Positions 3,061 to 43,225 of a stretch of DNA of 45,217 bases are shown here, piece by piece. The translations under genes were made by a program, and so were the position numbers. Below the pieces are notes generated by a model. That model did not search any database and was not told where the DNA came from. It saw only the letters and a program-made list of their open reading frames with translations. The stretch's first letter is position 1. Every line of letters starts with the position of its first letter. This DNA is from a virus, in the IMG/VR virus record IMGVR_UViG_3300037297_000118, positions 1 through 45,217 of that record. The stretch is one strand, 5' to 3'.

Positions 3061-3414
3061 ATGACATTAGATGAAAAGAAACAGGTAATTATAAATGAAT
3101 TTGAAGCAATCCCAAATTTAGATTTAGCAATTGAATCTGCAAAAATAAATTATGGTTTAACAGATAAAGATATAAAACGTGCTTTTGAAGATTCTGATTT
3201 TAATAGAAGAATTAAGAAAGTTGAAATTGATTTTAAAAAAGAACTATTAGATAATTATCTTGATTTGGTTAGATCAGTAAAAGATGATGATAGGTTAAAA
3301 TCACAATTGTTAATTAAAAGTTTAGAAACATTTGTTTCTGAAGTATTTGGTTCAAAAGATAAAAAAGAAGCGCCTGTTGTTCCGCAAAAGATCATATTGG
3401 AAGGTGTAGATTGA
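3061..3414 (+). CDS. terS: Terminase small subunit (probable)
   Basis: 117 aa. Assigned mainly by its place directly before TerL, with a 4-nt overlap, and by its size. The N-terminal half is helical and could hold a helix-turn-helix (DLAIESAKINYGLTDKDIKR); the rest is charged helix suited to oligomer formation. Small subunits recognise the packaging site and stimulate the large-subunit ATPase. No strong ribosome site precedes the ATG at 3061, which is unusual in this genome, so the start is less certain. Confidence 0.6.
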   Translation: MTLDEKKQVIINEFEAIPNLDLAIESAKINYGLTDKDIKRAFEDSDFNRRIKKVEIDFKKELLDNYLDLVRSVKDDDRLKSQLLIKSLETFVSEVFGSKDKKEAPVVPQKIILEGVD

Positions 3415-4688
3415 TCCAAAAAGTACAGATAATTAAAAAGGTTCAAGATACACTTGTTAAATCAGATAAAAGGCATAGGTTGATTGTTGGTGGTAGGGGT
3501 AAAGGTGCAAGTTGGTCAATAGCACGTGTTCTATTATTGGAAGGGATGCGTGATTCTTTATTTATTCCTTGTGTTCGTGAAATCCAAAAAACAATACGTT
3601 ATTCAGTAAAAAAATTGCTCGACGATACAATTGAACATTTCGGGTGGGAATGGTTTTATAATTCAACACTAACTGAAATTTCTGGTATTAATGGAACTAA
3701 GTTTATTTTTGTAGGGATGCAGGATTTTAAAGCTGATGATGTTAAATCACTTGAAGGTGCAGATCGGTGTTGGGTTGCTGAAGCACAAGCAATTAGTAGA
3801 AGATCAATTAATATTTTAAGACCAACAATCAGAAAAGAAAATTCTGTTATCTGGTGGGATTTTAACCCACGATATGAAACTGATCCTGTTTGGATAGATT
3901 ATATTTTAAATGCTGATCCTAATGCAGAAGTGCTTTGGTTAAATTGGAAAGATAACCCTTGGTTTACTGATGCATTAAAATTAGAATTAGAATCTGATTA
4001 TAGAAGAAATGAAGAGGAAGCACGGCATATTTGGGAAGGTGAATTAAGAACTGCTGGTGATCGTTTTGTATGTCCATCTTCTTTAGTTGATATTGCAATT
4101 GAAAATAAAATTAATTTTCTTGAAGGTGATAGTGTAGTAGGTGCAGATATAGCGCATCAGGGTGGTGATCATATTGTATTTTATCGTAGGCATGGAAATA
4201 AAATAGTTGATAAGTATGAATCTCAATATCAAAATACACAAACAACAATTAGACATTTAAAATCCTTTGCAATTGATAAATCAGTAATAATTAATATTGA
4301 TAATGGTGATATTGGGAAAGCTGTTGCAGATTTTCTTGAAGCAGATGGTTGGAAAGTAAACAGAATTAATTTTGGTGGTAAACCAATTGATACAGAACAC
4401 TATGAAGATATTGCAACAGAAATGTATTTTAATTTAAGGGATAAACTACAATATATTGATATTCCAAATGATGAAGAATTAAGAAACCAATTAATACAAA
4501 GGAAATATGATTTTATAAATGGTCGTAGAGGTTATGAAGTAATGAAAATTGAAAATAAAGATACATTTAAAGAACATGCTGTTATGAATAGTAATTCTCC
4601 TGATAAAGCTGATGCTTTAGTATTGTGTTTTTATGAAGGTGCAGCAAAAAATGCTTATGCTACAACAGTTGATTATAACATTTTTTAA
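3411..4688 (+). CDS. terL: Terminase large subunit
   Basis: 425 aa. The ATPase domain has a deviant Walker A (VGGRGKGAS, residues 27-35), a Walker B-like segment (CWVAEAQAIS, about 120-129) and WWDFNPRYETDP. The RNase H-like nuclease domain starts with GADIAHQGGD (near 245), then NIDNGDIG and the late acidic motif DKADAL. This is the PBSX-like terminase layout. It pumps DNA into the prohead and cuts concatemers. The start is TTG at 3411 in a TTGA overlap with the TerS stop, with GGAAGG 6 nt upstream. The P-loop lysine is displaced from the usual GKS/T position. Confidence 0.9.
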   Translation: MIQKVQIIKKVQDTLVKSDKRHRLIVGGRGKGASWSIARVLLLEGMRDSLFIPCVREIQKTIRYSVKKLLDDTIEHFGWEWFYNSTLTEISGINGTKFIFVGMQDFKADDVKSLEGADRCWVAEAQAISRRSINILRPTIRKENSVIWWDFNPRYETDPVWIDYILNADPNAEVLWLNWKDNPWFTDALKLELESDYRRNEEEARHIWEGELRTAGDRFVCPSSLVDIAIENKINFLEGDSVVGADIAHQGGDHIVFYRRHGNKIVDKYESQYQNTQTTIRHLKSFAIDKSVIINIDNGDIGKAVADFLEADGWKVNRINFGGKPIDTEHYEDIATEMYFNLRDKLQYIDIPNDEELRNQLIQRKYDFINGRRGYEVMKIENKDTFKEHAVMNSNSPDKADALVLCFYEGAAKNAYATTVDYNIF

Positions 4689-26923: not shown

Positions 26924-29900
26924 TTGGGTAAAATAAAACCACCAGTATTAACATCTTCACGTATTTGTGATGCTTCACGTGTAGCTATTGCTGCTGATGA
27001 TACACCAGTAAAAAAACAGAATTGGGAAAATGAATTTATTTTATGTACTCAAATTGAAGATGATGGTAATGCATGGTCTGCTGCTTATAAATTAAGATTC
27101 AGAGATAAAACTGCTGCTGGTGCTTTTGCTGATGTTGGATCAGCAACAGCTATTAGATGGGGAACAGGTACAGTTTTAGTTGATGGTGCAACATTAACAC
27201 AAGCAAATAGTAGATGTACAAATAATCCAGGTAGCATTTGGCAAGATGGTTTAGAAAATGAAGGGGATAATTTATTACCAGATACAGGAACATATGCTTT
27301 AGGTGGAGCAAACTATACAGAATTTCAGTGGGCGCTTGATCCTACTGGTGTTATTCTTTGCCATGAATATGAATTTGAATTATATGATGTAACAAATGGT
27401 GCTGCAATTGGTACTTGTGTTGCAACATGGTCAAGTTTTATTTTGCATTATGTAAATACTGGTTCAACTCCTGGTGGAACTGGTAAAACAAATGCGACAA
27501 CTGGAACTGATAGGGCATTTGCAAGCACTTCAGAATGGGAAGCAGCAGCAGATGAAGATTTAGTTGCTGCTGGTTGTGGAAATTCACAATTATATTTAGA
27601 TGGTGGTCAAGAGGAATATAAAACTTCAACAGGTGCAATTGTAATTTCTGGTTGGAATACTGATCAAGATAATAAAATTGAAATTTTAGGTGGTTATCCT
27701 TTAGGAAATGGAAGGCATGATAATACATTTAAAACTGATAGACATAGATACAGATGGACAGTTGACACAACTACTGCACCACCTAACGGTTTATTTGATA
27801 TTGAACTTGCATTAGATGATGCTGTTGAATTTTCATTTATGCAGGTTGAATTTAATATAACTGCAAACTTTGGTGCAAATACTGTTAGAGTAATTGATCA
27901 ATTTAATAATGATGAATTAGGTTTTTTCTGGTATCATAATAATTTGGTTAAAGGTGATTTTGATACTTCACCTGGTTATGGTGATGTAATTCCCCAAAGG
28001 CATTTAAATTTAACTCATATTGTAACAGGACCATCAGGACAAAGTGCTGCAAAAGCTTATATTTATAACAATATTATTTATTTACCAAATCAAGATTCTA
28101 TTGGTCGAAATGGTGGTGGTTTTTATTTTTACGCAAATGATACAGGTTTAGAAGTATGGTGTTATTATAATACAGTAATTGGTGGTACATATGGTATTGT
28201 TGTTTTTGCTGTAAATTCACTTGCAACTGATTTGCAAGTACATTTAAAAAATAATTTAGTTGCTTATCAATATCTTGGTGCTTTAAATGAAGTAAATCCA
28301 AATGGTGTTGCAACAGATAGTGATTATAATACAACTGATGATTCATCTTTTTCTGGTGGTGCAAATGATAAAGTAAATCAAACTTTTGATTTTGAAAATG
28401 AAAGTGCAAAAAATTACCGTTTAACTTGTTATGATCGTGGTGCACAATATTCAGCAGTTGATGTTTCAGCAGATACTAATTTACCTGTTGATGATGATGG
28501 TAAAGGACAATCCCCACGATCAGATTATCCTGATTGTGGAGCAGATGAAGAATATCATTTATGTGTAACATTTGAAGATACTGTTGGTATTACAGATGTA
28601 TTAACAAGAATTTTAAATGCAGTTAGATTAATTGCTGATACAATTGGAATAACAGATGTATTAACAAGAATCGGTACATTTTTTAGATCAATAGCCGATA
28701 CTGTTGGAATAACAGATTTATTAACAGCAGTTAAAGTTGGTGCAGCAAAGTTTGCTTCCCTTGCTGATACTGTTGGAATTACAGATACAGTTGCAAGAAA
28801 AAAAGGTGCAATTAGATCAATAGCAGATAATGTTGGGATAACTGATACTGTAAATAGAATTGGTTCATTCTTTAGAACTATAGCAGATAATGTTGGGATA
28901 ACTGATACTGTAAATAGAATTGGTTCATTCTTTAGAACTATAACCGATACAGTTGGAAGTACAGATTTACTTGCAAGATCATTAGTTTATTTTAGATCAA
29001 TTGCTGATACAGTTGGAATTACCGATACTGTTGCAACAGTAAAAGGTGCATTTAGATCAATAGCTGATACAGTTGGAATTACTGATTTACTTGCAAGATC
29101 AAAAGGTGCTATTCGTTCAATATCTGATACTGTTGGAATAACAGATACTTTAAATAGAATTGGTTCATTTTTTAGATCAATAGCCGATACAGTTGGAAGT
29201 ACAGATTTACTTGCTGCTTCTAAAATGGTTTTTGTTTCCCTTGCTGATACTGTTGGAATAACAGATTTAATTACAACTGCAAAAGGTGCAGTTAGATCAA
29301 TAGCCGATACAGTAAATATTACAGATACATTAACAAGAATTGCTTCATTCTTTAGATCAGTTTCTGATACTGTTGGAATTACTGATACTGTTGCAAGAAT
29401 AGGTACATTTTTTAGAACTATAACAGATACCGAAAATATTACAGATACACTTGCTGCTATAACTAAACTTGTTAGATCAATTTCTGATACTGTTGGAATT
29501 ACTGATACAATTACAAGAGTAGGTACATTTTTTAGAACAATAACAGATACCGAAAATATTACAGATACATTAACAAGAATAGGTTCATTCTTTAGAACTG
29601 TAGCCGATACAGTTGGAATTACAGATGTATTAACAGCAGTTAAAGTTGGTGCAGCAAAGTTTGCTTCCCTTGCTGATACTGTTGGAATTACAGATACAAT
29701 TACAACAGCAAGAAATATTATTAAATCAATTTCTGATACAGTTGGAATTACAGATGTATTAACAGCAGCTAAAAAAGTATTTGTTTCTTTAGCAGATACA
29801 GTTGGTATTACTGATATAATCACAAGATCAAAAGGTGCAGTTAGATCAATAACGGATACTGTAAATATAACAGATACTTTAACAAAAATAGTTTCTTTTG

Positions 29901-30394
29901 TTCGATCAATAACTGATACTGTAAATATAACAGATACTTTAACAAGAATAGGTACATTTTTTAGAACAATAACAGATACCGAAAATATTACAGATGCATT
30001 AACAGTAACTAAAAAAATACTTGTTTCCCTTGCTGATACTGTAGGCATAACGGATATATTGACAAGATCAAAAAAAGGAGTTAGAATAGTTGCCGATACA
30101 GTTGGAATTACAGATTTAATTACAAGATCAAAAGGTGCAGTTAGATCAATAATTGATACTGTTAATATTTCAGATACAATTTCAACAATTAGAACTATTA
30201 TAGTTCAACTTGCTGATACTGTTGGAATAACAGATGTTTTAAATGCTTTTGTTAGTTTACCACCTAAAATATTTGAAGGCATTTCAAATATTGTAACTTT
30301 TACTTCTGCTGGTATTTCGACAATATCAAAAAGTATTATTGAATTTATTTCAAATATCTTTACTAAATATGATGGGGGTGATTCAGAATTATGA
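26924..30394 (+). CDS. Large repeat fibre / surface adhesin
   Basis: 1156 aa from TTG at 26924, with AAGGTGG 5 nt upstream. Residues 1-540 are a beta-rich globular part that includes a possible beta helix (GYGDVIPQRHLNLTHIVTGP-like steps). From about residue 550 to 1107 there are about 28 repeats of roughly 20 residues with core DTVGITD followed by a hydrophobic, Arg-containing half. Such repeats probably stack as a rod holding a tip. Some neighbouring repeats are identical at the DNA level. Function as a long tail fibre or cell-surface adhesin is inferred. Confidence 0.65.
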   Translation: MGKIKPPVLTSSRICDASRVAIAADDTPVKKQNWENEFILCTQIEDDGNAWSAAYKLRFRDKTAAGAFADVGSATAIRWGTGTVLVDGATLTQANSRCTNNPGSIWQDGLENEGDNLLPDTGTYALGGANYTEFQWALDPTGVILCHEYEFELYDVTNGAAIGTCVATWSSFILHYVNTGSTPGGTGKTNATTGTDRAFASTSEWEAAADEDLVAAGCGNSQLYLDGGQEEYKTSTGAIVISGWNTDQDNKIEILGGYPLGNGRHDNTFKTDRHRYRWTVDTTTAPPNGLFDIELALDDAVEFSFMQVEFNITANFGANTVRVIDQFNNDELGFFWYHNNLVKGDFDTSPGYGDVIPQRHLNLTHIVTGPSGQSAAKAYIYNNIIYLPNQDSIGRNGGGFYFYANDTGLEVWCYYNTVIGGTYGIVVFAVNSLATDLQVHLKNNLVAYQYLGALNEVNPNGVATDSDYNTTDDSSFSGGANDKVNQTFDFENESAKNYRLTCYDRGAQYSAVDVSADTNLPVDDDGKGQSPRSDYPDCGADEEYHLCVTFEDTVGITDVLTRILNAVRLIADTIGITDVLTRIGTFFRSIADTVGITDLLTAVKVGAAKFASLADTVGITDTVARKKGAIRSIADNVGITDTVNRIGSFFRTIADNVGITDTVNRIGSFFRTITDTVGSTDLLARSLVYFRSIADTVGITDTVATVKGAFRSIADTVGITDLLARSKGAIRSISDTVGITDTLNRIGSFFRSIADTVGSTDLLAASKMVFVSLADTVGITDLITTAKGAVRSIADTVNITDTLTRIASFFRSVSDTVGITDTVARIGTFFRTITDTENITDTLAAITKLVRSISDTVGITDTITRVGTFFRTITDTENITDTLTRIGSFFRTVADTVGITDVLTAVKVGAAKFASLADTVGITDTITTARNIIKSISDTVGITDVLTAAKKVFVSLADTVGITDIITRSKGAVRSITDTVNITDTLTKIVSFVRSITDTVNITDTLTRIGTFFRTITDTENITDALTVTKKILVSLADTVGITDILTRSKKGVRIVADTVGITDLITRSKGAVRSIIDTVNISDTISTIRTIIVQLADTVGITDVLNAFVSLPPKIFEGISNIVTFTSAGISTISKSIIEFISNIFTKYDGGDSEL
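28573..30245 (+). repeat. Coding tandem repeat array, about 28 units of ~60 bp
   Basis: Each unit encodes about 20 residues with the core (A/S/T)DTVGITD. A 62-bp stretch from 28821 recurs perfectly 60 bp later, and about 70 bp near 28721 recur near 29627. Insertion or loss of units would change rod length in frame. Confidence 0.9.
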
Positions 30395-31362: not shown

Positions 31363-31788
31363 ATTAATAACTTTATAATCATTATCTAAAACACCAACAA
31401 TATCTTCTGCATCAACATCTTTTAGAAATTGTGCATACTTTGCTTTTTTTATAAATGTTTCTTGTGTATAGCTTCTTTCTATGTTTTTATTTTTAAAGAT
31501 AAATAAAGATGAATCAATAGATATAAATAAAAAAGCATTTCCACCCATAGCAACATAATTTTTAATCCAATTTAATTGCCCTGGTCGAAAAGGGATTTTA
31601 ATTTTTTTCTGTTCTAATTTTATTGGGTGTTGTATTACTTTAAATTCAATCCATCCATCAGTTTGTGTTGTCCTAAAAAATAAATCTGGTATTCCTACAC
31701 CCGTCATAGGTGATTCTATGCGTTGAACAAATATCCCTGAAAATTGCAGCAATTTAATTATCTTTCTTGATAATTCTGTTTCTTTCAT
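31354..31788 (-). CDS. VRR-NUC family nuclease
   Basis: 144 aa. The N-terminal helix (ETELSRKIIKLLQFSG) is followed by a compact PD-(D/E)XK core: GVGIPDLFF (Asp), then GWIEFKV (E-F-K) and RPGQLNWI. That is the VRR-NUC layout found as stand-alone phage nucleases, likely acting on branched DNA such as Holliday junctions or replication forks. It overlaps the DNA polymerase 3' end by 35 nt and so belongs to the replication operon. The rightward operon ends in it (convergent). Confidence 0.8.
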   Translation of the reverse strand: MKETELSRKIIKLLQFSGIFVQRIESPMTGVGIPDLFFRTTQTDGWIEFKVIQHPIKLEQKKIKIPFRPGQLNWIKNYVAMGGNAFLFISIDSSLFIFKNKNIERSYTQETFIKKAKYAQFLKDVDAEDIVGVLDNDYKVINLI

Positions 31789-33559
31789 GCTTTGTATACC
31801 CCTTTACATTTGCCCAATTTGTACCAATTTCTGCATCAACCTTTACAGGTACTTTTAATTTTATAGCTGTTTCCATTATATATTTCATTTCTTCAAAAGC
31901 TTCAAACCCTTCATCAGTTACAGGAATACTAACATCTAATTCATCATGTACTGTCAAATGGGGATGTAAAACATCAAATATTCCAGCTTTGTAATTGTCA
32001 AGCATAGCTTTCTTCATTAAATCTGCTGCTGAACCTTGAATTAATCGAGCAAACATTATATAAGCTTTCTTTTTATCAAGTAATCTGTTTCTTCTGTTTA
32101 AAATAGTTTTAATATATCCTCTTCTTTGGGCTACACTACTAACAGCTTGCATAGTTGCCTTTATATATGGTGCTTTATTATGGTAAACATCTAAAATTTC
32201 ATAACAGTATTTTAACGGCCAATTAAAAAATTGTGACATAAACCTTGCACCCATCCCATAACCAACACCGAAATTTAAATTTTTACTTTTCTTTCTATCT
32301 AATTTGGTTAAATCCATAATGTATTGATGATAATCAGTATCAGGGTTTTCAATATAAGTTTGTCTTAATTCTTCTGATCCTTTACCCCTTGCATAATGGG
32401 CTATGATCCTGTACTCAATTTGTGAATAATCACATTTACCCCAAATGCAACCTTCAAAGGGTATAAAAATTTCCCTGCACAATTTACCATATTCTTCTTC
32501 TGCTGGTATTTGTTGCAAGTTTGGATCGGAACAACTTAACCTTCCTGATCTTGCACCAAAATCATCAACCCTTGTATTATGATAATTTGGGTGAATTAAT
32601 TCATTTATTACATATCTTTCTAAACTTCCCATTAAAAATGTATTTACTGTTTTATGTGCTTTCCTGTATTCATGGATCATTTTTACAATAGAATATTGAT
32701 CTTCATATTTTCTAAAGAAATATTGATCTATGTTTGGGTTTCCTTTTTCTGTTAAAGGGTATTCAATCCCTTTTCTATCTAAAGCTTGTGCAACTTGTTT
32801 ACCACTATTGGGATTAAAATTTTCCCAAAATTCATCCCATAAGAAAAATTTAATTTTTTCATATTGATCTTGTAACTGTTTGGCATTTAATTCCCTTTTA
32901 TGATGATCAACTTTTGCACCTGTTTTTCTAAACAATAACAAACATCTAATTAATTCAGATTCCATTTCAAATAGATGATTTAATTCTTCTTTAACAAGAA
33001 TTGAATTTTGTTTTTCTAATATATCAATTGGTAGTTTTGCGTCTATCTTTCCATATTTAGATACAAGGGATGCAGGCATTTTAAACAACCAATTTCGTGC
33101 ATCCCCTGCTAAATTATTATCTTTACAAAATTGATAAATTTCTTCTGTATATTTTGTATAATCTAAATACTTTTTTGCAATATAATCTAAATTATATGTT
33201 CCCTGGTTTTCATCAATTAAAGCTTCAGCAATTTGAACATCAAGTATTTTACCCTTAACAGGAATTTTTAAAAAGTTTTCGATCCAATCAATATCATAAA
33301 TGATATTTGCACCAACTTTGGGAACATGGTTTTTAAATGTATCACGTAAATATTTTAGATTCTTTTGCTTTTCTGCTGGTTGTATATCAGTATGCCCTAT
33401 ATTGTAATACTCATTAAAACCGTTTTTGGTTGCAAGGGATATACCTAATACATAACCATCATCACGGAAAACACCTGTACCTAACTTTTTTAAATTAGGA
33501 TCATAGGTTTCTATGTCAAACCCTAAAATTGGTTCATTTCTCAAATCTGGATATTTCAT
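31754..33559 (-). CDS. Family A DNA polymerase with 3'-5' exonuclease
   Basis: 601 aa. Exonuclease: FDIETYD (residues 14-20), IIYDIDWIENF (86-96) and KYGKIDA (168-174). Polymerase: motif A CDYSQIEYR (376-384), O-helix RKKSKNLNFGVGYG (422-435) and motif C VHDEL (537-541). The Phe at 430 in the O-helix is the standard non-Tyr form. No 5'-3' exonuclease domain. It probably replicates the phage genome with the nearby primase and helicases. AAGGAG and a TATAAT-like box lie upstream, about 90 nt after a bipartite element. Confidence 0.95.
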   Translation of the reverse strand: MKYPDLRNEPILGFDIETYDPNLKKLGTGVFRDDGYVLGISLATKNGFNEYYNIGHTDIQPAEKQKNLKYLRDTFKNHVPKVGANIIYDIDWIENFLKIPVKGKILDVQIAEALIDENQGTYNLDYIAKKYLDYTKYTEEIYQFCKDNNLAGDARNWLFKMPASLVSKYGKIDAKLPIDILEKQNSILVKEELNHLFEMESELIRCLLLFRKTGAKVDHHKRELNAKQLQDQYEKIKFFLWDEFWENFNPNSGKQVAQALDRKGIEYPLTEKGNPNIDQYFFRKYEDQYSIVKMIHEYRKAHKTVNTFLMGSLERYVINELIHPNYHNTRVDDFGARSGRLSCSDPNLQQIPAEEEYGKLCREIFIPFEGCIWGKCDYSQIEYRIIAHYARGKGSEELRQTYIENPDTDYHQYIMDLTKLDRKKSKNLNFGVGYGMGARFMSQFFNWPLKYCYEILDVYHNKAPYIKATMQAVSSVAQRRGYIKTILNRRNRLLDKKKAYIMFARLIQGSAADLMKKAMLDNYKAGIFDVLHPHLTVHDELDVSIPVTDEGFEAFEEMKYIMETAIKLKVPVKVDAEIGTNWANVKGYTKHERNRIIKKDN

Positions 33560-33586
33560 GCTTCATAACTCCTTATAGTATATAGA

Positions 33587-33592
33587 ATTATA
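33587..33592 (-). promoter_or_regulatory. -10 box (TATAAT) of the polymerase promoter
   Basis: TATAAT on the minus strand, with no convincing -35, exactly 57 bp downstream of the second block of the bipartite element. The same 57-bp distance holds at the other copy. The poor -35 suggests activation from the upstream element. Confidence 0.5.
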
Positions 33593-33649
33593 GATCTATT
33601 TTCATACCTTTAACGTGGTGGGGTGTAGGATCGACGCAAAATCAAAAAA

Positions 33650-33711
33650 GGTATCCAAGTATCACCTATGCCCAAAAGATCGCTTCTACACCCCTTCACG
33701 TGCAAGGTTTT
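33650..33711 (-). promoter_or_regulatory. Bipartite upstream element, copy 2
   Basis: Read on the minus strand: AAAACCTTGCACGTGAAGG (33711-33693), 28 bp, then TGATACTTGGATACC (33664-33650). Both blocks and their spacing are identical to 2087-2148. It lies between the helicase stop (33725) and the polymerase start (33559). A 9-bp inverted repeat GGGGTGTAG/CTACACCCC brackets the second block here but is absent in copy 1. Confidence 0.7.
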
Positions 33712-33724
33712 TTCCTATGTGTTT

Positions 33725-35122
33725 TCAAAAATGAATATATGAATCATACCCATTTTTTGAGTTTGAAAACACTATATGAAGGTTCTTTTTTGCACGTGTA
33801 CAGGCAACATATAAACACCTTAATTCTGAATCAGGGTTATTTTCAAAATTTTCTCTAACTGATTTGGTAAAATCAAGCTTAATAACAACATTATCTGCTT
33901 CACCACCTTTAACACCATGAATAGTATTTATCATTAAATTCTTATTGTTTATATCATGCCCATTTTTAATCAAATCCCTGTAATACATCATTAGATCATT
34001 TTCCATTTCAAAATTCATAAACCAAGGCAATTTTAAATCAATCTTATCTTCATCAACATATCTTTTAATTGTCATTTCTTCTGTTTCTGACATTTGCCTT
34101 GTTTTGCGTATCTTTTCAAAAGTATTGATTGCAGCAACATCTTTTTTATTGACAGAAAATTTATCTTTATAATAGTAGGGTAAACCATGCATGTTTAATT
34201 GTTCTGAATATTGTTTTAAAAACCAATTATTTCTACATAGAAAATACCACGTTTCATTTGGATCAATAGAAATATCTTGAAGATAATTATGAAAGTATAT
34301 TTTCCCTGCATCCCCTATAGGTTCAAATTTCTTTTCAACCTTGTTTTTAATTTGCTTTGAAATTTGTTTTGCAAGCTTTAGAATATCCTTTTGTAATCTG
34401 TAGCTTTGATGTAATATTACTTTTTTACCTGTTAAATTTAAAAACTGTTCAACATCTGCACCCGACCATTCATAAATTGCCTGTTCATCATCCCCTGCAA
34501 TATATACCCTTTTGCAATCCTTAAAGGCAACTTTGCACATTTCCCACTGTAAAGATGTTAAATCTTGTGCTTCATCTATAATAGCAACATCAACAGGCAA
34601 AGCTTTTTTAGTTTCAACAAATCTTTCAATCATATCTGTAAAATCAACAATCTTTTTAAACTCCTTAAATCTAATATAGTTGTTTCTTACATCATTCAGC
34701 TTTCTAATATTCAAACCATATTTAAATTTTTCTGCTTGTTTATTGTTGTTTCTTTCAAGAATAGTTTGAAATAAATATCTATCATCATTATGATAAAATT
34801 CTTCTGTATAATATCCTGTAAATGTCATTCCCATAGCACGTGAAAATTCTTTGTAATCCCTTTTATTAATTACATCATATTTAGAAAAACCACCTTCCCT
34901 AAATGCTATTGAATGAAGGGTACGAAAATATTTAAAATCTTTTTCATCATAACCAAATTTTTCAATTGCTCGATTTCTTCCTTCATATGTTCCTTTTCTG
35001 GTAAAACTGACAAAAGCAATTTTATTAGGTTCATTTTGTTTTAATTCCTTTTCAAGAATATCAAGTAAATAGGTTGTTTTTCCGCATCCAGGTGCACCAA
35101 AAATAATATTTATATCTTCCAT
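33725..35122 (-). CDS. UvrD-like superfamily 1 helicase
   Basis: 465 aa from ATG at 35122, chosen because AAGGAA precedes it and it starts 1 nt after the primase stop; a TTG further up would overlap the primase gene. Motifs: P-loop IIFGAPGCGKTT (6-17), VAIIDEAQDLTS, YIAGDDEQAIYEWSGA, LHQSYRL, NTIHGVKGGEADNV and LYVACTRAKK. This is a compact UvrD/Rep-type helicase moving 3'-5' on ssDNA. Next to AEP primase and PolA it may be the replicative helicase, since no DnaB-like gene is present. Confidence 0.9.
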   Translation of the reverse strand: MEDINIIFGAPGCGKTTYLLDILEKELKQNEPNKIAFVSFTRKGTYEGRNRAIEKFGYDEKDFKYFRTLHSIAFREGGFSKYDVINKRDYKEFSRAMGMTFTGYYTEEFYHNDDRYLFQTILERNNNKQAEKFKYGLNIRKLNDVRNNYIRFKEFKKIVDFTDMIERFVETKKALPVDVAIIDEAQDLTSLQWEMCKVAFKDCKRVYIAGDDEQAIYEWSGADVEQFLNLTGKKVILHQSYRLQKDILKLAKQISKQIKNKVEKKFEPIGDAGKIYFHNYLQDISIDPNETWYFLCRNNWFLKQYSEQLNMHGLPYYYKDKFSVNKKDVAAINTFEKIRKTRQMSETEEMTIKRYVDEDKIDLKLPWFMNFEMENDLMMYYRDLIKNGHDINNKNLMINTIHGVKGGEADNVVIKLDFTKSVRENFENNPDSELRCLYVACTRAKKNLHIVFSNSKNGYDSYIHF

Positions 35123-35123
35123 T

Positions 35124-36722
35124 TTAAAATTCCTTTTCTGGATCAAAGTTGGCAACAAATTCTTTTTGTTCTGCTGTTGTCATTAATTTAAAATCTTTTA
35201 ATCCTAAACACCAAACACGAATTTGTTGCCTTGTTTCTGTTTTAATCTTTTTTGGTTTAGCACCTACTCTTGTTAATTCCCTATGTATTTCAGTTGTAGA
35301 AAAATCTCTAAAATTTTTCTGGTGAAAAAATTCTACTAAATCAAATGATCTAAAATAATATTCTTGATATGGTTTATCAAAGTAAACACGTTTATTTAGT
35401 ATTTGATCTTTATTGTTTGCCATAGCTCTATTAGTTAAAAAATCTATGAAGTAGTTTCTAAATATACTGTATGGGGAAATATCATCTTCTTTATTAACAT
35501 GAATAATTTCTATTTCTTCTAAATGCTGATTAACAAGTTTAAACCATTCAACTTGCTTCATTTTAACAGGTAAAGTATGCAGTTCTCTAAAACACAATCT
35601 AAGAAAAACATCTTGTTTAATAATTTCATCTTCATTTCTGAAGGATAATCTTTTAAATGCACCTGAATTAGATTGTGCTTTTACTTCCCATTCATAATAG
35701 GGTAACTCTGTTTGTATCTGGTAAAGCTTTCCAAATTCAATATTAGAAAAATACCCACCCATTTTACCAATACCGAATTTTCTTGTTTTACAGATTGTTC
35801 TATTACAGAAATCGACACAAGGGGAATCAAAGCACTTGTAAATATAATCTTTCTTTCTTAGGGAAGAAAGCACGGTTTTTTCTAATTCATTTTCATCTAA
35901 TGGTGCTTCTAATTCATTATTTATCACTAATACTTTTTGCTCAAAAAAATGTTCATCTTGTTTTTTGAAGTAAACACCAAAAGAAAAAAGATAATTATTT
36001 CTTCCTGAATTTTTGCGTAAAGGATTTAAAAGGTAAATAGTTTGTAAACAGGGTGGACCATCAAAGAAAGGAATATTATCAAGAAAAGCTTTTATATCAT
36101 AAATAGAAATTATTTTAGATTTAATATAGGTAAGTGCATCACCTAAGCTTAATTTTTTACCATTTTTAATTGCATATTGTTGTGTATCATCTGCATTAAA
36201 ATATGGTAGGTTTATCCAAGTACCAATATTATCTGCTGCTAATTTTGTTTGTTTAGGAAATATTTCTAAAACCCTATTTAATTGTTTTTGTATTAATAAA
36301 TCCAATCCTAAAAGGATTGCCATTTTTTCAAGATAAATTCTAACATTTTTAACATCAGCATATTTTGATAAAAATAAATATAAATGTAAACCACCTGATT
36401 TTGATCTAAAAGGAACTAAAGGGAAATTATGTTTTTCAATTGCTTCAAGATATGTTGAAAGATTTTTACTATAAATGTCTATGTCTATAACAGCAAATTT
36501 ACACTGATTTTTTTTATTAATAGGAATAACACCCAATCCAATTTTTCCATCTAAATGTGCTTTATATTGTGTTTGGGTTAGCAGTTTTTCCTTTATTGTA
36601 TAACTTTCACCAGCTTCTTTTTCACCTTTTTTAGAAGTAAATTTATATTTGTGTTGCCCATAGTTTTGTTTATTACCTTCAAAGATTTGTTGAAATTCAG
36701 TTAGATAGAGTTTTTTGTCCAC
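35124..36722 (-). CDS. Archaeo-eukaryotic primase (AEP, TOTE-like)
   Basis: 532 aa from GTG at 36722 with AAGG 7 nt upstream. The AEP catalytic core is clear: FAVIDIDIYS (metal-binding Asp 80 and 82) and FRSKSGGLHLYLFL (105-118), the SG.H.Y nucleotide site. A cysteine cluster near 303-318 (CFDSPCVDFCNRTICKTR) suggests a zinc or iron-sulfur element, as in primase accessory regions. The C-terminal third is helical. It makes primers for phage replication. The stop is 1 nt before the helicase start. Confidence 0.85.
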   Translation of the reverse strand: MDKKLYLTEFQQIFEGNKQNYGQHKYKFTSKKGEKEAGESYTIKEKLLTQTQYKAHLDGKIGLGVIPINKKNQCKFAVIDIDIYSKNLSTYLEAIEKHNFPLVPFRSKSGGLHLYLFLSKYADVKNVRIYLEKMAILLGLDLLIQKQLNRVLEIFPKQTKLAADNIGTWINLPYFNADDTQQYAIKNGKKLSLGDALTYIKSKIISIYDIKAFLDNIPFFDGPPCLQTIYLLNPLRKNSGRNNYLFSFGVYFKKQDEHFFEQKVLVINNELEAPLDENELEKTVLSSLRKKDYIYKCFDSPCVDFCNRTICKTRKFGIGKMGGYFSNIEFGKLYQIQTELPYYEWEVKAQSNSGAFKRLSFRNEDEIIKQDVFLRLCFRELHTLPVKMKQVEWFKLVNQHLEEIEIIHVNKEDDISPYSIFRNYFIDFLTNRAMANNKDQILNKRVYFDKPYQEYYFRSFDLVEFFHQKNFRDFSTTEIHRELTRVGAKPKKIKTETRQQIRVWCLGLKDFKLMTTAEQKEFVANFDPEKEF

Positions 36723-36811: not shown

Positions 36812-37540
36812 TTAAAATTCGTTTTCTGATTCTGTTGTTTGATCAGAAATTTGTGAATAGTCTACTTGTCTTTCTGGAAGTGCTTTTCTTTCAGGACCGA
36901 TGATTTTATATTGCTTTTCGTTTATGTACCCACTAAAAGACATTCTTGGTACATACCAATCATAAGGTTCTTTTTCGATATGTTCAGAAGTTATTTCCCA
37001 AACTAAATAATAAGGCAAAGCACGTTTGCCATTATCAAGTACATGGGTTGTCAATAATCTATTCCATTCACGTGCAGATTTAATTGCACTGGAATAAAGG
37101 GAAAATACATTAATCCCTTCCTTTTCATGCCCATCAAGCAGCAAGAAATAAACATAGTTTTCTTGAAGTATATTCCCTGTTTCTGTTTTCCATTTACCAA
37201 ATGTTTTATCTGCTGCAATCCTTTCTGCATTTTCAACAGAATGATAACCGACAAAACCACCACGATTAGGCAACCATTCAATATAAATTCTTTCAAACTT
37301 TAAAACAATTGCCTTTAGTTTTTTGCCATAAACTACTTTGGAAACAGTATTAAAAAAATCACCTGCTTCTAATTCTTCTATATACCCTGGATTGTTCTTT
37401 TTCAATTGGGGTGAAGAATCTTGTGCAATCCTAACAAAAGGAATTGCCATAGTTTGTGTGCTGATTTGTTCAAAACCTTCAAAATTATCTGCTTTGTCTA
37501 CAAATCCCAATACTGTTTTTTTGTTTGTTCCGTTTGCCAT
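36812..37540 (-). CDS. Single-stranded DNA-binding protein (probable, gp2.5-like)
   Basis: 242 aa. A beta-rich core (PFVRIAQDSSPQLKKNNPGY, KAIVLKFERIYIEWLPNRGG) fits an OB fold, and the C-terminus is acidic and ends in Phe (TTESENEF), the hallmark of phage SSB proteins that recruit polymerase and helicase. Length is close to T7 gp2.5. AAGGAG precedes the ATG. The attenuator hairpin after it agrees with high demand. Not confirmed by fold search. Confidence 0.65.
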   Translation of the reverse strand: MANGTNKKTVLGFVDKADNFEGFEQISTQTMAIPFVRIAQDSSPQLKKNNPGYIEELEAGDFFNTVSKVVYGKKLKAIVLKFERIYIEWLPNRGGFVGYHSVENAERIAADKTFGKWKTETGNILQENYVYFLLLDGHEKEGINVFSLYSSAIKSAREWNRLLTTHVLDNGKRALPYYLVWEITSEHIEKEPYDWYVPRMSFSGYINEKQYKIIGPERKALPERQVDYSQISDQTTESENEF

Positions 37541-37561
37541 TTCTTTGACTCCTTAATAAGT

Positions 37562-38143
37562 TTATTTTAATATAGTTTTGTGGAAGGTAAAAATTTTAGC
37601 AAAAGTTTCAATTAACTCCTTTCTGACATACTTACCAGATTTTAAACCATCTTCAATATCTGGTTTGTCAATTCCAAGTAATTCTTTAAAATATTTTTTC
37701 TTTGTTTGTGTATGTACATCTTTTTTGCTGTCAAAATCATATTCATTTGTCATTAGAAAAGTAAATAAATCTTCAACTTTGCTGCTTTCCATTTTCCCAA
37801 AATCAAAATGAAGTTTAACAATATCATCTTCTTTTCTTGATTCAAGAAAAGTAAAGAATTGTTCAGCATCTTTAATTGTTACAGATATATCATCTTTAAC
37901 AATTACTTTTTCACCTGTAGCTAATTTGATTTCTGATAAACCAAAATTTGCAAGTAGTTCTGGAATCATAACACCACTGTATTCATTAAATAATTTTTTC
38001 TGTCCAGCAAGTTTTTCTTCTAATGTTTCAATTGATGTTTTTAATTCCTTATAAATTGCAACATAGCTTTGTAGTTTATCTAATGCATCATTTGATATTT
38101 CTTCATTTAAGTTTTTCAAAAATTCAGGTGTTGCTTTTTCCAT
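37562..38143 (-). CDS. Early phage protein with coiled coil and beta domain
   Basis: 193 aa from ATG at 38143 (AAGGA upstream); a longer start would add a stretch of Lys/Arg with no better ribosome site. A coiled coil (NDALDKLQSYVAIYKELKTS, LEEKLAGQK) is followed by IKLATGEKVIVKDDISVTIK, a beta hairpin pattern of a common early phage family of unknown role, often near SSB or recombination genes. Overlaps the Csx16-like gene by 20 nt. Confidence 0.6.
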   Translation of the reverse strand: MEKATPEFLKNLNEEISNDALDKLQSYVAIYKELKTSIETLEEKLAGQKKLFNEYSGVMIPELLANFGLSEIKLATGEKVIVKDDISVTIKDAEQFFTFLESRKEDDIVKLHFDFGKMESSKVEDLFTFLMTNEYDFDSKKDVHTQTKKKYFKELLGIDKPDIEDGLKSGKYVRKELIETFAKIFTFHKTILK

Positions 38144-38465
38144 TTTCTTTTTCCTTTTTCTCCTTTTTTTCTTCCTCTTCAAATGAAGTTTGCCTTATAA
38201 TGTAGGTTTTAGGTTCACTTGCATAAAAACGTATTTCTTCTAAAGTTAATTCTGTACCACGTTTTTCACTTGGTATTCTTAATTGAACTTCAGTGAATTT
38301 TGCAGTATGGCAAGCTAACCAATAAGGCAAAACACCTAACACATGCTTGTTTCTAACATCATCAGCATTTGCATGTGTAATAATTTTGGTTTTATCATCT
38401 ATAAGTTTTAATTCTTTTAGATAATCAACCAAACTTTTGTACCTTGTTACAACTAATTTTTCCAA
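38124..38465 (-). CDS. csx16: Csx16-like protein (CRISPR ring nuclease family), candidate anti-CRISPR
   Basis: 113 aa from TTG at 38465, with AAGGAG 9 nt upstream. The sequence follows the Csx16 (VVA1548) pattern: VVTRYK at the N-terminus, HANADDV (31-37), LGVLPYWLA (43-51), LRIPSEKRGTELTLEE (62-77) and TYIIR (87-91). An added charged tail (FEEEEKKEKKEKENG) is not typical. Csx16 occurs with type III CRISPR, where relatives degrade cyclic oligoadenylate. No cas genes or repeats occur here, so a phage copy would more likely switch off host type III signalling. Family match is from recall. Confidence 0.75.
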   Translation of the reverse strand: MEKLVVTRYKSLVDYLKELKLIDDKTKIITHANADDVRNKHVLGVLPYWLACHTAKFTEVQLRIPSEKRGTELTLEEIRFYASEPKTYIIRQTSFEEEEKKEKKEKENGKSNT

Positions 38466-38479
38466 ATTTTGTAACTCCT

Positions 38480-38668
38480 TTAATTATAAATTTTGTAGTA
38501 AATCTCATTTAGTTTTATGGATTGATTCATAGTTATATCTTTTTCGTAATATCTCCTTTCTTCTAAATCAAGAATAAAATCTATTTCCCAATCATTTAAC
38601 AAATGTAAATGATTTCTACAATATTTAATTCTGTTATCCCATCTTTTACGAGTTTCTTTACTTACCAT
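38480..38668 (-). CDS. Small phage protein (W..RI...R / WEIDFI type)
   Basis: 62 aa from ATG at 38668; an alternative GTG at 38719 lies within the preceding small gene. The pattern WDNRIKYCRNHLHLLNDWEI, FILDLEERRYYEKD and KLNEIYYKIY is one I know from small phage proteins of replication regions with no known function. It overlaps the 40-aa gene by 11 nt. Helical throughout. Confidence 0.6.
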   Translation of the reverse strand: MVSKETRKRWDNRIKYCRNHLHLLNDWEIDFILDLEERRYYEKDITMNQSIKLNEIYYKIYN

Positions 38669-38780
38669 ATTTTTGTTCAAGAGTAAAAAGAATTCTTTCA
38701 GCAATTCTATTACATGCACTTGATAAACCTATAAGAATTTTCACAATCAATTTCTGAATCTCATAATCTAAATCATTCAT
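38658..38780 (-). CDS. Very small helical protein
   Basis: 40 aa, MNDLDYEIQKLIVKILIGLS at the start, linked to the upstream zinc-ribbon gene by an ATGA overlap and running into the next gene. The middle is hydrophobic and amphipathic. Its precise coupling on both sides supports translation, although 40 codons is near the noise limit. Confidence 0.5.
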   Translation of the reverse strand: MNDLDYEIQKLIVKILIGLSSACNRIAERILFTLEQKYGK

Positions 38781-38977
38781 AGTTCTAATTTCCTTTTGAA
38801 ATGTAAAGCATTAACTTCACCTACAGGTTTTTTACCTGCTTGTTTAGTTCTCAATTTTAATGTCTGATCTATACACGAACATTTTTTATAAAAAGAATGA
38901 AATTCACCTTTAACTGTAAAACGTAATAATCTAATTTCTTTACAGTTAGGGCAAGCTTCCCTTTTTAATATAAACAA
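38777..38977 (-). CDS. Small zinc-ribbon protein
   Basis: 66 aa from TTG at 38977 (AAGGA 5 nt upstream). CPNC at 9-12 and CSC at 33-35 give a likely zinc site; the C-terminal part is basic (KLRTKQAGKKP). It overlaps the RecB-like nuclease gene by 13 nt. Could serve a nuclease or replication partner; no family named. Confidence 0.65.
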   Translation of the reverse strand: MFILKREACPNCKEIRLLRFTVKGEFHSFYKKCSCIDQTLKLRTKQAGKKPVGEVNALHFKRKLEL

Positions 38978-39588
38978 AATTTGTCCTTATAAGCTTTCAT
39001 TAATTGATAATCAGCTTGTATAAATTCAATTGTTTCTTTTACCTTTTGTTCAACTGTATGTCTCAATTCATCTTGTGATTCAGTTAAATTAATAGGTATT
39101 TCTATTTTATCTTCAATCTTTCCATCTGAATCAAAAACAGCAACCAAATATTTAAAGTAATGAATATTAGTAATGTAACAATACAGCAAATGTTGAAAGG
39201 ATTTTTTATAATATTCTTTGCCTTTATAGCTGGATGTTGTTTTAATATCAATTAAACAGTCTGGAAAATAAACATCAACTTTTCCAAACAAGCAATATTC
39301 AACATCATTAATTTCTATAAACTTTTTAATTTTCTTTTGAACTTCCCCACCTTTACACTGAATTATAAACCATTCTAAATCTTTGTTTGTTGTTTTGCGT
39401 TTGTGCTGCAAATAATTGTAAATTCTTTTTTCAAAATTGATACCTAACTTAATTGCATTTTTTGGTTCTAACCAAATACGATTTAATTGGTTTAACAAAT
39501 CTTCATATGCTTTTGCTTTCCAGTGTACAGGTGCAATTTTAAACCAATCTATACTACTTATTAAACTGGTTGTAATTAGTCTGCTCAA
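38965..39588 (-). CDS. RecB/Cas4-like PD-(D/E)XK exonuclease
   Basis: 207 aa from TTG at 39588 (AAGGA 9 nt upstream). Motifs: GINFE (49-53, with catalytic Glu), GKVDVYFPDCLIDIKTTS (102-119, with Asp and Lys) and QHLLYCY (132-138), the layout of RecB-type nucleases. It probably trims DNA ends for phage recombination together with the SSB-like protein. Cysteines are scattered rather than in the four-Cys Cas4 pattern, so an iron-sulfur cluster is not evident. Overlaps neighbours on both sides. Confidence 0.75.
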   Translation of the reverse strand: MSRLITTSLISSIDWFKIAPVHWKAKAYEDLLNQLNRIWLEPKNAIKLGINFEKRIYNYLQHKRKTTNKDLEWFIIQCKGGEVQKKIKKFIEINDVEYCLFGKVDVYFPDCLIDIKTTSSYKGKEYYKKSFQHLLYCYITNIHYFKYLVAVFDSDGKIEDKIEIPINLTESQDELRHTVEQKVKETIEFIQADYQLMKAYKDKFCLY

Positions 39589-39739
39589 TTAATTTAATCC
39601 TTTCTTTAACTTTTGCTTTGTAGTTCTCCAAAGCTGCTTTTGCCTTGTGTAAATCAGCAATTGTATTATTTATATTGCCAATCCTTAATTCTAATTCAAC
39701 CAATTGATTTTGTAAATTTATATATTCAGTTTTTGCCAT
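39554..39739 (-). CDS. Small coiled-coil protein
   Basis: 61 aa from ATG at 39739, 6 nt after AAGGA. Almost entirely coiled coil (INLQNQLVELELRIGNINNT, LHKAKAALENYKAKVKERIK). It overlaps the RecB-like gene by 35 nt and may be its partner, in the manner of accessory subunits, but this is only context. Confidence 0.55.
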   Translation of the reverse strand: MAKTEYINLQNQLVELELRIGNINNTIADLHKAKAALENYKAKVKERIKLIEQTNYNQFNK

Positions 39740-40073: not shown

Positions 40074-40270
40074 TTAAATTTAATCTGTATTTCATATGTA
40101 AAATTAAAAGTATCTTCTGCATCCATTCTTTCTTTTAGTACTGCCCATTTAATTTTTGAAATAGAAATGCCCATTATTCTAAATACAATATAACAGTATA
40201 ATTTAAGCATAAATAAAATTGGATGTTTAGTTATTGCTTTTCCCCAAAAAATTTCTGCTCTATCATTCAT
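40070..40270 (-). CDS. Small membrane-associated protein
   Basis: 66 aa, ATGA-coupled to the M23 peptidase gene. One hydrophobic segment (HPILFMLKLYCYIVFRIMGI) flanked by basic residues suggests membrane insertion. It may help the peptidase or affect the host membrane; no family recognised. Confidence 0.5.
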   Translation of the reverse strand: MNDRAEIFWGKAITKHPILFMLKLYCYIVFRIMGISISKIKWAVLKERMDAEDTFNFTYEIQIKFK

Positions 40271-40860
40271 CTTTGATGCTCCAAAAAATAAATTGGATCA
40301 ACAGTAATTTCAAAATGTAAATGTGGTCCTGTTGAAATTCCTGTATTCCCTACTTCAGCAATCTTTTCACCTGCTTTAACAAAATCCCCTTCATGTACAA
40401 AGGTTTTAGAATTATGCCCATAATGGGAATAAAGATTTTCAGAATGTTTTAAAATAATGTAGCAACCAAAAATATCATGCCCTTTATATAAAATACCGTT
40501 ATGGTATCCAGGTGGTAGCCAATTAGCAATTACTTCACCATCTAAAACAGCAAAAACAGGTGTTCCGATTGTTGCAGAATAATCTTTACCTTTATGAAAT
40601 TTTTCATCACCACCACCCATAGGATTTTGCCTTAATCCTGTTGATGAAGTAATAACTGTTTTATTTAATGGATGATAAAAAACAGGAACAATTAATTGAT
40701 CTTCCAAATCTGCAATCTGATTTTCTTTAATTTCAATTTGTTCTTTTAATGCTTCTATTTTTCTTTCTTTATCTTGTAATTTAGTTTCCATATTAAAACG
40801 AACAGCAAACATGAAACATAATAAAATGCTTCCAATCATTACAATATTTTCTATCTTCAT
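40267..40860 (-). CDS. M23 (LytM-like) peptidoglycan endopeptidase
   Basis: 197 aa. N-terminal membrane anchor (IVMIGSILLCFMFAVRF), a coiled coil (27-55) and an M23 domain with HKGKDYS (His 89, Asp 93), YSHYGH (144-149) and GPHLHFE (178-184); the HxxxD and HxH residues bind zinc. It would cut peptide bonds in peptidoglycan from the membrane side. In this phage it lies in the early replication arm rather than the late lysis cassette, so it may act during entry, exclusion or slow wall opening as well as lysis. Confidence 0.85.
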   Translation of the reverse strand: MKIENIVMIGSILLCFMFAVRFNMETKLQDKERKIEALKEQIEIKENQIADLEDQLIVPVFYHPLNKTVITSSTGLRQNPMGGGDEKFHKGKDYSATIGTPVFAVLDGEVIANWLPPGYHNGILYKGHDIFGCYIILKHSENLYSHYGHNSKTFVHEGDFVKAGEKIAEVGNTGISTGPHLHFEITVDPIYFLEHQR

Positions 40861-41398: not shown

Positions 41399-41667
41399 TA
41401 TTTGAATAACTCCTTATAATATTTGCATGAATAAAAATGTGGGGAACAACACCTTGGAATTGTCCAGGTGTAACGCATTTTAAAACACATTAAATTACAA
41501 AAACAATTTGGATTATTTGAATTGTCAAGATTAATATCTAAATATGGACAAGTTTTAATTGATGCTGATGGTGCAGAAATAGTTTGCTCCAAAACAGTCT
41601 TTACCTTCCTTTGGGGTTTCCTGGTTCGTCCATCGGCCAAATGGTTTATATTTTTAGTCTGCACCAT
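41398..41667 (-). CDS. Small cysteine-rich protein, paralogue B
   Basis: 89 aa. It starts inside the SNF2-like gene end (14-nt overlap). The C-terminal half has eight cysteines (TCPYLD, CFCNLMC, RCCSPHFYSCKYYKE), suggesting one or two metal sites or a disulfide-rich fold. It shares the CKYYK ending with the next gene. No family recognised; the N-terminal 35 residues are polar and may be an extension. Confidence 0.55.
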   Translation of the reverse strand: MVQTKNINHLADGRTRKPQRKVKTVLEQTISAPSASIKTCPYLDINLDNSNNPNCFCNLMCFKMRYTWTIPRCCSPHFYSCKYYKELFK

Positions 41668-43225
41668 CAGCTAAAATATCCCCTAAAGAATTTGATTTGA
41701 AAAAATCATTTAAATCTTTTCCTTCAGATAAAACTTTAAAAACTTTTTCATCAATTGTATTTTTTGCAATTATATCTTTATAAACACAAATTGATTTTTG
41801 ACCGATCCTATGTGATCTATCTTCAGCTTGTAAACGGTTTTCAGTTCTAAATGAATTGGAAAAGAAATATTGCATACTTGAATTTTGCAGATTTAACCCG
41901 AAACCTGCTGTTGAAGGATTGCCAATAAATATTTGAAAATCACCAGCTTTAAATTCTTTTATAATCTGTTCCCTTTGATACTTGCCTGTTTTACCATAAT
42001 ACAATCTACAAGAATAATCTTTTTTTAATTCATTATATAATAGTTCTAACTCTTTAACAAATTGCGCCCAAATTATAACTTGTCCATTTGTTTCTTCTAA
42101 ATCTTCTTTTAATCTTTCAAGCTTTGGGTTTACTTTTCCAATTGACATTATTTTTTGTGAACCATCTTCTTTATATGGAAAGAAACCACCACAAATCTGC
42201 ATTAATCGAGTTGTCAAACTTATTTTATTAACAACAGATAATTCTTTATTTGCGTATTGTGCTAAAAGTTGTGTTCTAAGATTTTTGTAAACTTTCTTTT
42301 GTTCAGGTGTTAATTCAATATAGATATGTTCATAAATCTTTTCAGGTAAATCTAAACATTCTTCTTTGGTAATTGAAAAAATATCATCTTCAATATATTG
42401 TTTTAATTCATCTATTCTTTTGAATCTTGTAAATTGATCTTGTGAAGCAATAAATTTAACATTTGCTTCTGATATTCCCATGATAGTTGCAACAGCTTCA
42501 TAATCATTATCTGTTTCTTTTAATTTATATTTAACAGTATTAAATGCTTTTTCATCAATTAAAGTATGATAGTTTGCACCTGTATAATGATTAGTACCCT
42601 TTTGCAGTATTCCATATCTATGTTGAAATATAAAATAGTTGCATTTAAAATAATCAGCTTTTAAAAATTCAAATTGACTCCATAAATCAAAAGGTGATTT
42701 AGCTGTTGGTGTTCCTGTAAGAATTGCCCTATGTCCATATTTATTTAAACGGTGAATTATTTGTGATCGTTTTGCTTTGGGTGTTTTTATTCTGGTAGAT
42801 TCATCAACAATTGTGAATACATCATGATTGTGTACTAATTCGGAAATAACAGGGATGATTGGTTTGCCTTGAAATGCTTCTACATTACAAGCAAAGATTT
42901 TTAATTTATCTGTTTCTGAAATCAGAAAATCATTTAAACGATTCTTTCTATATACAGCACTCATTTTTGAAGTTTCCCAAACAAAAGCTGTATATGGAAT
43001 AGAACAGTGTATTGGCAATTGCTCATGAATCCACTGGTGATGTACATGGTTAGGTGCAATAATTAATACTGCACTAATATCACCTTTTTTAAATTTGTAT
43101 TCAGCAATTTTAATTGCTATTCTTGTTTTGCCTGTTCCCATATCACAAAACAAGGCAAAGAATTCTTTTTCTTTAAATTTTTCAATTGCTTCATCTTGAT
43201 GTTGGTAATTTTTAATTTGATTCAT
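41654..43225 (-). CDS. SNF2-like superfamily 2 ATPase
   Basis: 523 aa. Motifs: Q-rich YQHQDEAIEKF, P-loop CDMGTGKTRIAIKI (27-40), TIVDESTRIK in place of the DEAH box, ILTGTPTAKSPFDLWSQF, then the second domain (QVIIWAQFVKELELLYNELK, IGNPSTAGFGLNLQNSS, RSHRIGQ). This is the phage SNF2/DEAD family found in replication regions. It translocates on double-stranded DNA or removes proteins and may help at the origin. ATGA-coupled to the zinc-ribbon gene upstream. Confidence 0.85.
   Translation of the reverse strand: MNQIKNYQHQDEAIEKFKEKEFFALFCDMGTGKTRIAIKIAEYKFKKGDISAVLIIAPNHVHHQWIHEQLPIHCSIPYTAFVWETSKMSAVYRKNRLNDFLISETDKLKIFACNVEAFQGKPIIPVISELVHNHDVFTIVDESTRIKTPKAKRSQIIHRLNKYGHRAILTGTPTAKSPFDLWSQFEFLKADYFKCNYFIFQHRYGILQKGTNHYTGANYHTLIDEKAFNTVKYKLKETDNDYEAVATIMGISEANVKFIASQDQFTRFKRIDELKQYIEDDIFSITKEECLDLPEKIYEHIYIELTPEQKKVYKNLRTQLLAQYANKELSVVNKISLTTRLMQICGGFFPYKEDGSQKIMSIGKVNPKLERLKEDLEETNGQVIIWAQFVKELELLYNELKKDYSCRLYYGKTGKYQREQIIKEFKAGDFQIFIGNPSTAGFGLNLQNSSMQYFFSNSFRTENRLQAEDRSHRIGQKSICVYKDIIAKNTIDEKVFKVLSEGKDLNDFFKSNSLGDILADGAD

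Follow-up and report, generated by a model that had tools for sequence, protein, structure and literature searches.

The window analysed here, the whole 45,217-nucleotide stretch of one IMG/VR virus record, encodes a terminase large subunit, a tape measure protein, a DNA polymerase and a primase and thus belongs to a tailed phage (Table 1). A megablast search with positions 20300-45217 matched no phage record, and the protein encoded at 4700-6061 matched zero phage records. The DNA polymerase matched 3583 phage records, at 37% for the best, and the gp34-like protein matched 501, with 28-29% for the 15 matches listed. No tRNA was found when the window was searched for them. One ORF of 1156 aa (26924-30394) contains more than 20 imperfect repeats of 60 nt (20 aa) at 28563-30260 and probably encodes a tail-fibre or receptor-binding protein, and the ORF at 40267-40860 resembles by eye an M23-type peptidase and presumably acts in lysis.

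Table 1. Coordinates of the Csx16-type gene, of its parts and of other genes in the window
Feature	Position	Strand	Remarks
Terminase large subunit	3411..4688	plus	marks tailed phage
Replication module (DNA polymerase, UvrD helicase, primase)	31754..36722	minus	
Pam3 gp34-like protein	36812..37540	minus	profile match
DUF7307/Pam3 gp33-like gene	37562..38143	minus	downstream of csx16; profile match
Csx16-type (PF09652) gene	38124..38465	minus	113 aa, TTG start; ORF and Pfam match
Charged C-terminal tail, residues 95-113	38127..38183	minus	coded by purine-rich RBS/start of downstream gene
Codons 69-72, RGTE	38250..38261	minus	conserved RGxE motif
Codon 31, His (family H31)	38373..38375	minus	Tyr in L072, L155 and L281; Arg in L004
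Codon 9, TAC (Tyr)	38439..38441	minus	position of the TRH His; His in 102/104 viral copies
Shine-Dalgarno sequence AAAGGAG	38475..38481	minus	9 nt ahead of TTG; from sequence
Small ORF, 79 aa	38480..38719	minus	upstream of csx16; counterpart also just upstream in sister L004 (44% over 62 aa)
SNF2-type helicase	41654..43225	minus	~3 kb from csx16; adjoins csx16 in L004 and L073

The initial annotation had assigned a Csx16-like protein to the interval from 38124 to 38465. The interval holds, and the coding strand is the minus strand, on which an ORF opens with a TTG at 38465 and closes with a stop codon ending at 38124, the plus-strand reading of the same interval being interrupted by many stops. 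The sister gene in contig L004 has an ATG start at the same residue as the TTG of the window gene. A promoter scan of positions 37500-39700 gave no signal, with 11 sites compared to 12.8 in shuffled sequences. The charged C-terminal tail of the protein had been regarded as an added feature, a view that inspection of the gene border makes improbable, as the ATG of the downstream gp33-like gene lies at 38143 and the two genes overlap by 20 nt. The tail is coded by sequence that also provides that gene with its ribosome-binding site and start, and it is much shorter in sister L004, so that it probably has no function of its own. Among the other viral sequences inspected, L034 also carries a charged C-terminal run, of about 14 residues.

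The window had also been described as lacking both cas genes and a repeat array, and this was borne out. Neither the Cas10 palm nor RAMP domains were found in its record, which thus gave no linkage to a type III CRISPR locus, and a search for direct repeats (copies of at least 22 nt within 120 nt) gave no CRISPR-like array. The repeats present are the 60-nt units inside the 1156-aa ORF and four two-copy families.

The Csx16 (VVA1548) pattern proposed for the protein was confirmed, as it matched PF09652 (Cas_VVA1548/Csx16) with 49.8 bits (cut-off 25, E 4e-13) and the PADLOC Csx16 profile with E 1.3e-13, and as all the quoted motifs, HANADDV, LGVLPYWLA and IPSEKRGTELT, are present. Pfam therefore places it above the family cut-off, but the stricter NCBIfam profile TIGR02620 gave 16.7 bits, far below its cut-off of 46.35 (E 0.0064). 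A PHROG search with the protein gave no family at E 0.001. PF09652 was the sole Pfam family at E 0.001 in each of 47 viral members scanned, all of which also matched TIGR02620 at E 1 or better. From the alignments, we defined three motifs of our own, [ST]RH after strand 1, G-x-LP and RGxEL. The latter two are found in the window protein as GVLP and RGTEL, and [ST]RH is replaced by TRY, likewise in L004. The protein thus shares with Csx16 of type III loci PF09652, Arg8, His31, the G-x-LP and RGxEL motifs, a five-stranded alpha/beta fold and a profile match, at 99.6% probability, to five aligned Csx16 sequences, three CRISPR-linked and two from archaeal elements. It differs from them by the lack of cas genes found in its record, by Tyr9, by GVLP instead of GTLP or GSLP, by Leu12 instead of Ala12 and by its TIGR02620 score. 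The window gene is thus genuine, carried by a phage and related to a known family of ring nucleases; we do not class it as a canonical Csx16, because its TIGR02620 score lies below the cut-off, TRH is lacking and there is no CRISPR linkage.

The AF2 model of the protein, built on a 47-row alignment, has a mean pLDDT of 94.7 and is of the alpha/beta type, with strands at residues 2-5, 26-28, 40-43, 55-58 and 85-88, as in the five-stranded core fold described for Csx16 (PMC12409355). When the model was compared with known structures, the first row was AcrIII-1 (6scf), with a Z score of 4.2 over 71 residues at 3.1 A, tied with a methyltransferase at 4.2, values that are low like all those obtained here; the tool cautions that a Z below 8 may reflect no more than a common arrangement. 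Sis0455, SiRe_0806, Cad1 CARF and Sso2081 were also among the first 11 rows. For L006, a relative that has TRH (model pLDDT 92.3), the top rows were AFV3-109 (Z 5.0) and AcrIII-1 (Z 4.5), and the first eight were all cyclic-oligoadenylate proteins or their homologues, namely these two, Cam1 (two entries), Csx1-Crn2, Sis0455, Cad1 and SiRe_0806. The published DALI Z score of a Csx16 model against 2J6B is 4.8 (PMC12409355). Foldseek searches of the PDB and of viral (BFVD) models gave no match at E 0.001. The window model has the five-stranded Csx16 fold and may share that of AcrIII-1, a likeness for which the L006 model is the clearer of the two. A profile search of PDB sequences also retrieved designed ankyrin proteins with E down to 1.5e-6. 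These were rejected, as the score is summed over repeats, as none of the single stretches in the five alignments shown is significant (best i-Evalue 0.2), and as only the middle of the profile is matched.

AcrIII-1/Crn2 (DUF1874) is, like the product proposed here, a small viral cA4-removing protein, but no sequence homology to the window protein was detected (hhalign probability 0.2%; no DUF1874 match in Pfam). AcrIII-2 is an example of a bacterial defence fold, SAVED, taken up by viruses for cA4 degradation (PMC12751052); it is a SAVED protein of 230 aa, whereas the window protein gave no SAVED match in Pfam and only a weak structural row, 9r8s, with Z 3.1.

Besides the window, 103 further IMG/VR contigs carry the gene. 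Successive IMG/VR scans with alignments of increasing size gave 6, 54, 83 (80 kept) and 56 loci, corresponding to 98 distinct viral-type contigs; a scan with CRISPR-type proteins added four contigs and a search of primase relatives one. The single query P0001 gave no match among the viral contigs. At 90% domain identity, 90 of 102 loci remain. Near copies and truncated or mis-framed sequences (L018, L022, L044, L047, L050, L055 and L058, and in one alignment also L057) were left out of the alignments, and L121 took the place of the contig of L050. Searches for the Cas10 palm (PF22335) gave no match in two sets of 50 and 47 virus records, together 97 of the 104 (all but L007, L011, L022, L044, L055, L141 and the contig of L281), which is weak evidence for any one record because many virus records are fragments; an Aeromonas type III-B plasmid, used as a positive control, matched both times. 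RAMP (PF03787) was found at its cut-off in none of 50 virus records. A terminase of the phrog_2 type was present in 29 of 50 records, many of which are fragmentary, and some of those without it may not be tailed phages.

Several copies have unusual surroundings or architectures. The virus record of L023 (G016:C1:46841-47551) has a weak RAMP-like match below the cut-off (E 2e-5). Viral proteins L023, L032, L046, L052 and L057 have approximately 100-200 extra residues beyond the Csx16 domain and are possible fusions. Tandem fusions of two Csx16 domains are encoded by an MPF_T-typed plasmid of Allomeiothermus silvanus (L002:5992-6777) and by a Meiothermus luteus contig (L010:9821-10780), both with many conserved residues lost in the second half, and a third copy lies inside a 675-aa frame (G073:C3:1860-2108) of what its coordinates indicate to be A. 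silvanus. Two of 111 Deinococcota genomes matched, one of them the centre genome itself. In the archaeal plasmid P-10H_0 (L061), csx16 has no annotated cas genes within 8 kb, and the protein groups with that of virus contig L199 in the tree.

A search of INPHARED (50,697 records) with four protein queries retrieved Csx16 only from Methanobacterium virus Drs3, one virus deposited twice, and by the CRISPR-type query only, the viral-type queries P0001, L006 and L021 giving no match. Of the 28,114 phage genomes in the Millard set, 2 have been reported to carry Csx16 (PMC12409355), and the two Drs3 records presumably are these two genomes. Among the excerpts of PMC12409355, PMC12830947, PMC13148439 and PMC3936711, only that of the first mentions phage copies of Csx16. 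Like the window gene, Drs3 Csx16 is virus-borne, with no Cas10 palm found in its record; unlike it, it keeps TRH and has signature residues (Ala12, GTLP) nearer the CRISPR type. A scan of genome contigs with narrow patterns gave Meiothermus luteus only.

Leu12 is found in 79 of the 79 viral-type representatives outside the clade of the window protein, and GVLP in 70. Ala12 with GTLP or GSLP is found in the three CRISPR-linked plasmid proteins, in Drs3 and in one archaeal plasmid. In a tree of the 90%-identity representatives (90 of 102 loci, without L047, L055 and L058, as for the residue counts), the CRISPR-linked proteins and virus L197 lie on one side and the viral type, including two Deinococcota plasmid proteins, on the other. 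This tree is weakly resolved, with 3 of 93 inner branches starred, a short alignment and an outgroup that does not form one side of any branch. That most of the viral copies form a branch of their own, away from the three CRISPR-linked proteins in the comparison, thus has modest support and is likely rather than shown, the CRISPR-linked references being so few.

The closest relatives of the window gene are encoded by L004, L012, L072, L073, L155 (with its copies) and L281, in all of which csx16 lies among replication genes, at varied sites. In the window it precedes the gp33- and gp34-like genes; in L004 its neighbours are a small ORF on one side and the SNF2 helicase gene on the other; in L073, and by eye in L281, the SNF2 helicase and the gp33-like gene are on either side; and in L012, L072 and L155 it follows the DNA polymerase and precedes a gene that we take to be VRR-NUC-like, for which Pfam gave no match. 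Such a position would be expected if the protein bound nucleotides as an accessory to phage replication and had nothing to do with CRISPR, and it recurs in seven related phages, next to the gp33-like and/or SNF2 gene in four (window, L004, L073, L281) and after the polymerase in three. However, these are two different sites in one phage group, the other viruses have no neighbouring gene in common, and PF09652 is absent from 37 of 39 contigs that encode a related primase, so that we hold a role in replication to be improbable. The 39 contigs are those of at least 30 kb among 80 listed of 593 primase-related matches; the two carriers have the most similar primases, and the proportion of 37/39 overstates the absence among the nearest kin, as L004, L012 and L072, with related primases and csx16, lie outside the 39. 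The 119 proteins encoded by immediate same-strand neighbours of csx16, from naive gene calls, gave matches to 57 PHROG families, the commonest of which occurs in four. Because its neighbours differ between viruses and because 37 of the 39 contigs with a related primase do without it, csx16 behaves as an accessory gene in these viruses.

Position 9, that of the His in TRH, is His in 102 of 104 viral copies (near copies counted; L092 and L281 read separately) and in seven reference domains. The sole viral exceptions, both Tyr, are the window protein (TAC) and its sister L004 (TAT), and an IMG/VR scan with a pattern omitting position 9 gave no further Tyr copy. Among non-viral sequences, the tandem protein of Allomeiothermus has lost this His too, in its degenerate second half. 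Arg8, His9, Gly44 and Pro47 are each found in all 79 other viral-type representatives, Arg69 in 75 and His31 in 72. The likely general acid is a His in both AcrIII-1 (H47) and Crn4 (H15) (PMC12830947), and the excerpts of PMC12409355, PMC12830947 and PMC13148439 contain no statement on the catalytic residue of Csx16; we infer that it is the TRH His9. That His9 is equivalent to His47 of AcrIII-1 would be a guess from the models. In the comparison with 6scf, the alignment opens with residue 1 of the model on residue 40 of the chain, which places model residue 8 (Tyr9) on residue 47 if gapless; for L006 and AcrIII-1 it opens with 1 on 30, so that His9 and His47 do not pair without a gap, the first and last aligned residues alone being given.

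The catalytic power of the window copy appears doubtful, because it has Tyr where 102 of the 104 viral copies and the reference domains have His. At positions 9 and 31, the clade of seven has Tyr and His in the window, Tyr and Arg in L004 (which also has Lys69), His and His in L012 and L073, and His and Tyr in L072, L155 and L281. As His and Tyr alternate between the two positions, these may lie opposite one another in the pocket. These changes might also be those of a passenger gene under weak selection whose active site is decaying, as position 9, 31, 69 or 70 is altered in five of the seven clade members. We consider this to have little probability, since the window gene keeps an open frame and a good ribosome-binding site, since seven related phages carry the gene, with identities to the window protein of 45-64% in five, and since Arg8 and Glu72 are kept in the six clade members aligned.

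With Tyr9 present and His31 retained, the window protein would be expected to bind cA4, with slow cleavage at most. At the extreme, the window copy would not cleave at all and would block type III defence by holding cA4 tightly, as a sponge. This sub-case is possible, although we would not call it probable. The replacement of His9 by Tyr is confined to the window and L004, the latter with Arg31 and Lys69 as well; the inactive H47A mutant of AcrIII-1 still binds cA4 at ~25 nM (PMC7213978); and Csx15 is described as a good cA4 sponge and a very slow ring nuclease (PMC13148439). On the other hand, the window protein keeps His31 and Arg69, the catalytic role of His9 is itself presumed, and the authors of the Csx15 study regard sponging as perhaps fruitless against the large messenger amounts of type III systems and did not see Csx15 in phages (PMC13148439).

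Taken with the family, the phage setting and the lack of cas genes, these observations support the anti-type III use that the initial annotation had thought likely, the removal of host cyclic oligoadenylate to stop the defence, but they leave its catalytic part doubtful on account of Tyr9. As the rather probable reading, we infer that the window phage uses this accessory gene, a relative of csx16, as a shield against type III CRISPR through the removal of cA4. The host Cas10 would make cA4, the window protein, possibly as a dimer, would take it away, and type III defence would thus be blocked; the place of csx16 in the replication module would agree with expression at the time when phage DNA is replicated. 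A target in CBASS or a similar cyclic-nucleotide system, suggested by the Crn4 ring nucleases, which cut cA3, cA4 and cA6 (PMC12830947), seems unlikely, as the sole Csx16 tested, a cellular one, was specific for cA4: in EDTA buffer it degraded cA4, by ring opening, and not cA3 or cA6 (PMC12409355).

The idea of an anti-CRISPR Csx16 is not new, because the presence of Csx16 in phages and the cleavage of cA4 by a Csx16 of cellular origin have both been published (PMC12409355). With these already in print, the additions made here are of scale, the wide spread among viruses, and of anatomy, Tyr9. Few viral type III anti-CRISPRs that remove cA4 have been named, AcrIII-1 and AcrIII-2, with Crn4b, Csx20 and Csx16 as candidates in few phage genomes (PMC12409355, PMC12751052, PMC12830947). 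More speculatively, and we advance it as doubtful, viral Csx16 could be a widespread, little-reported class of type III anti-CRISPR with its own branch in about 100 uncultivated viruses, in which the window protein and its sister have turned into cA4 sponges or the chemistry has moved from His9 to His31. The natural His/Tyr variants at one position provide a ready test of the catalytic residue in Csx16. If a family rare in isolates is easily found in uncultivated viruses, viruses would seem to resort to cA4 removal more often than the isolate collections show.
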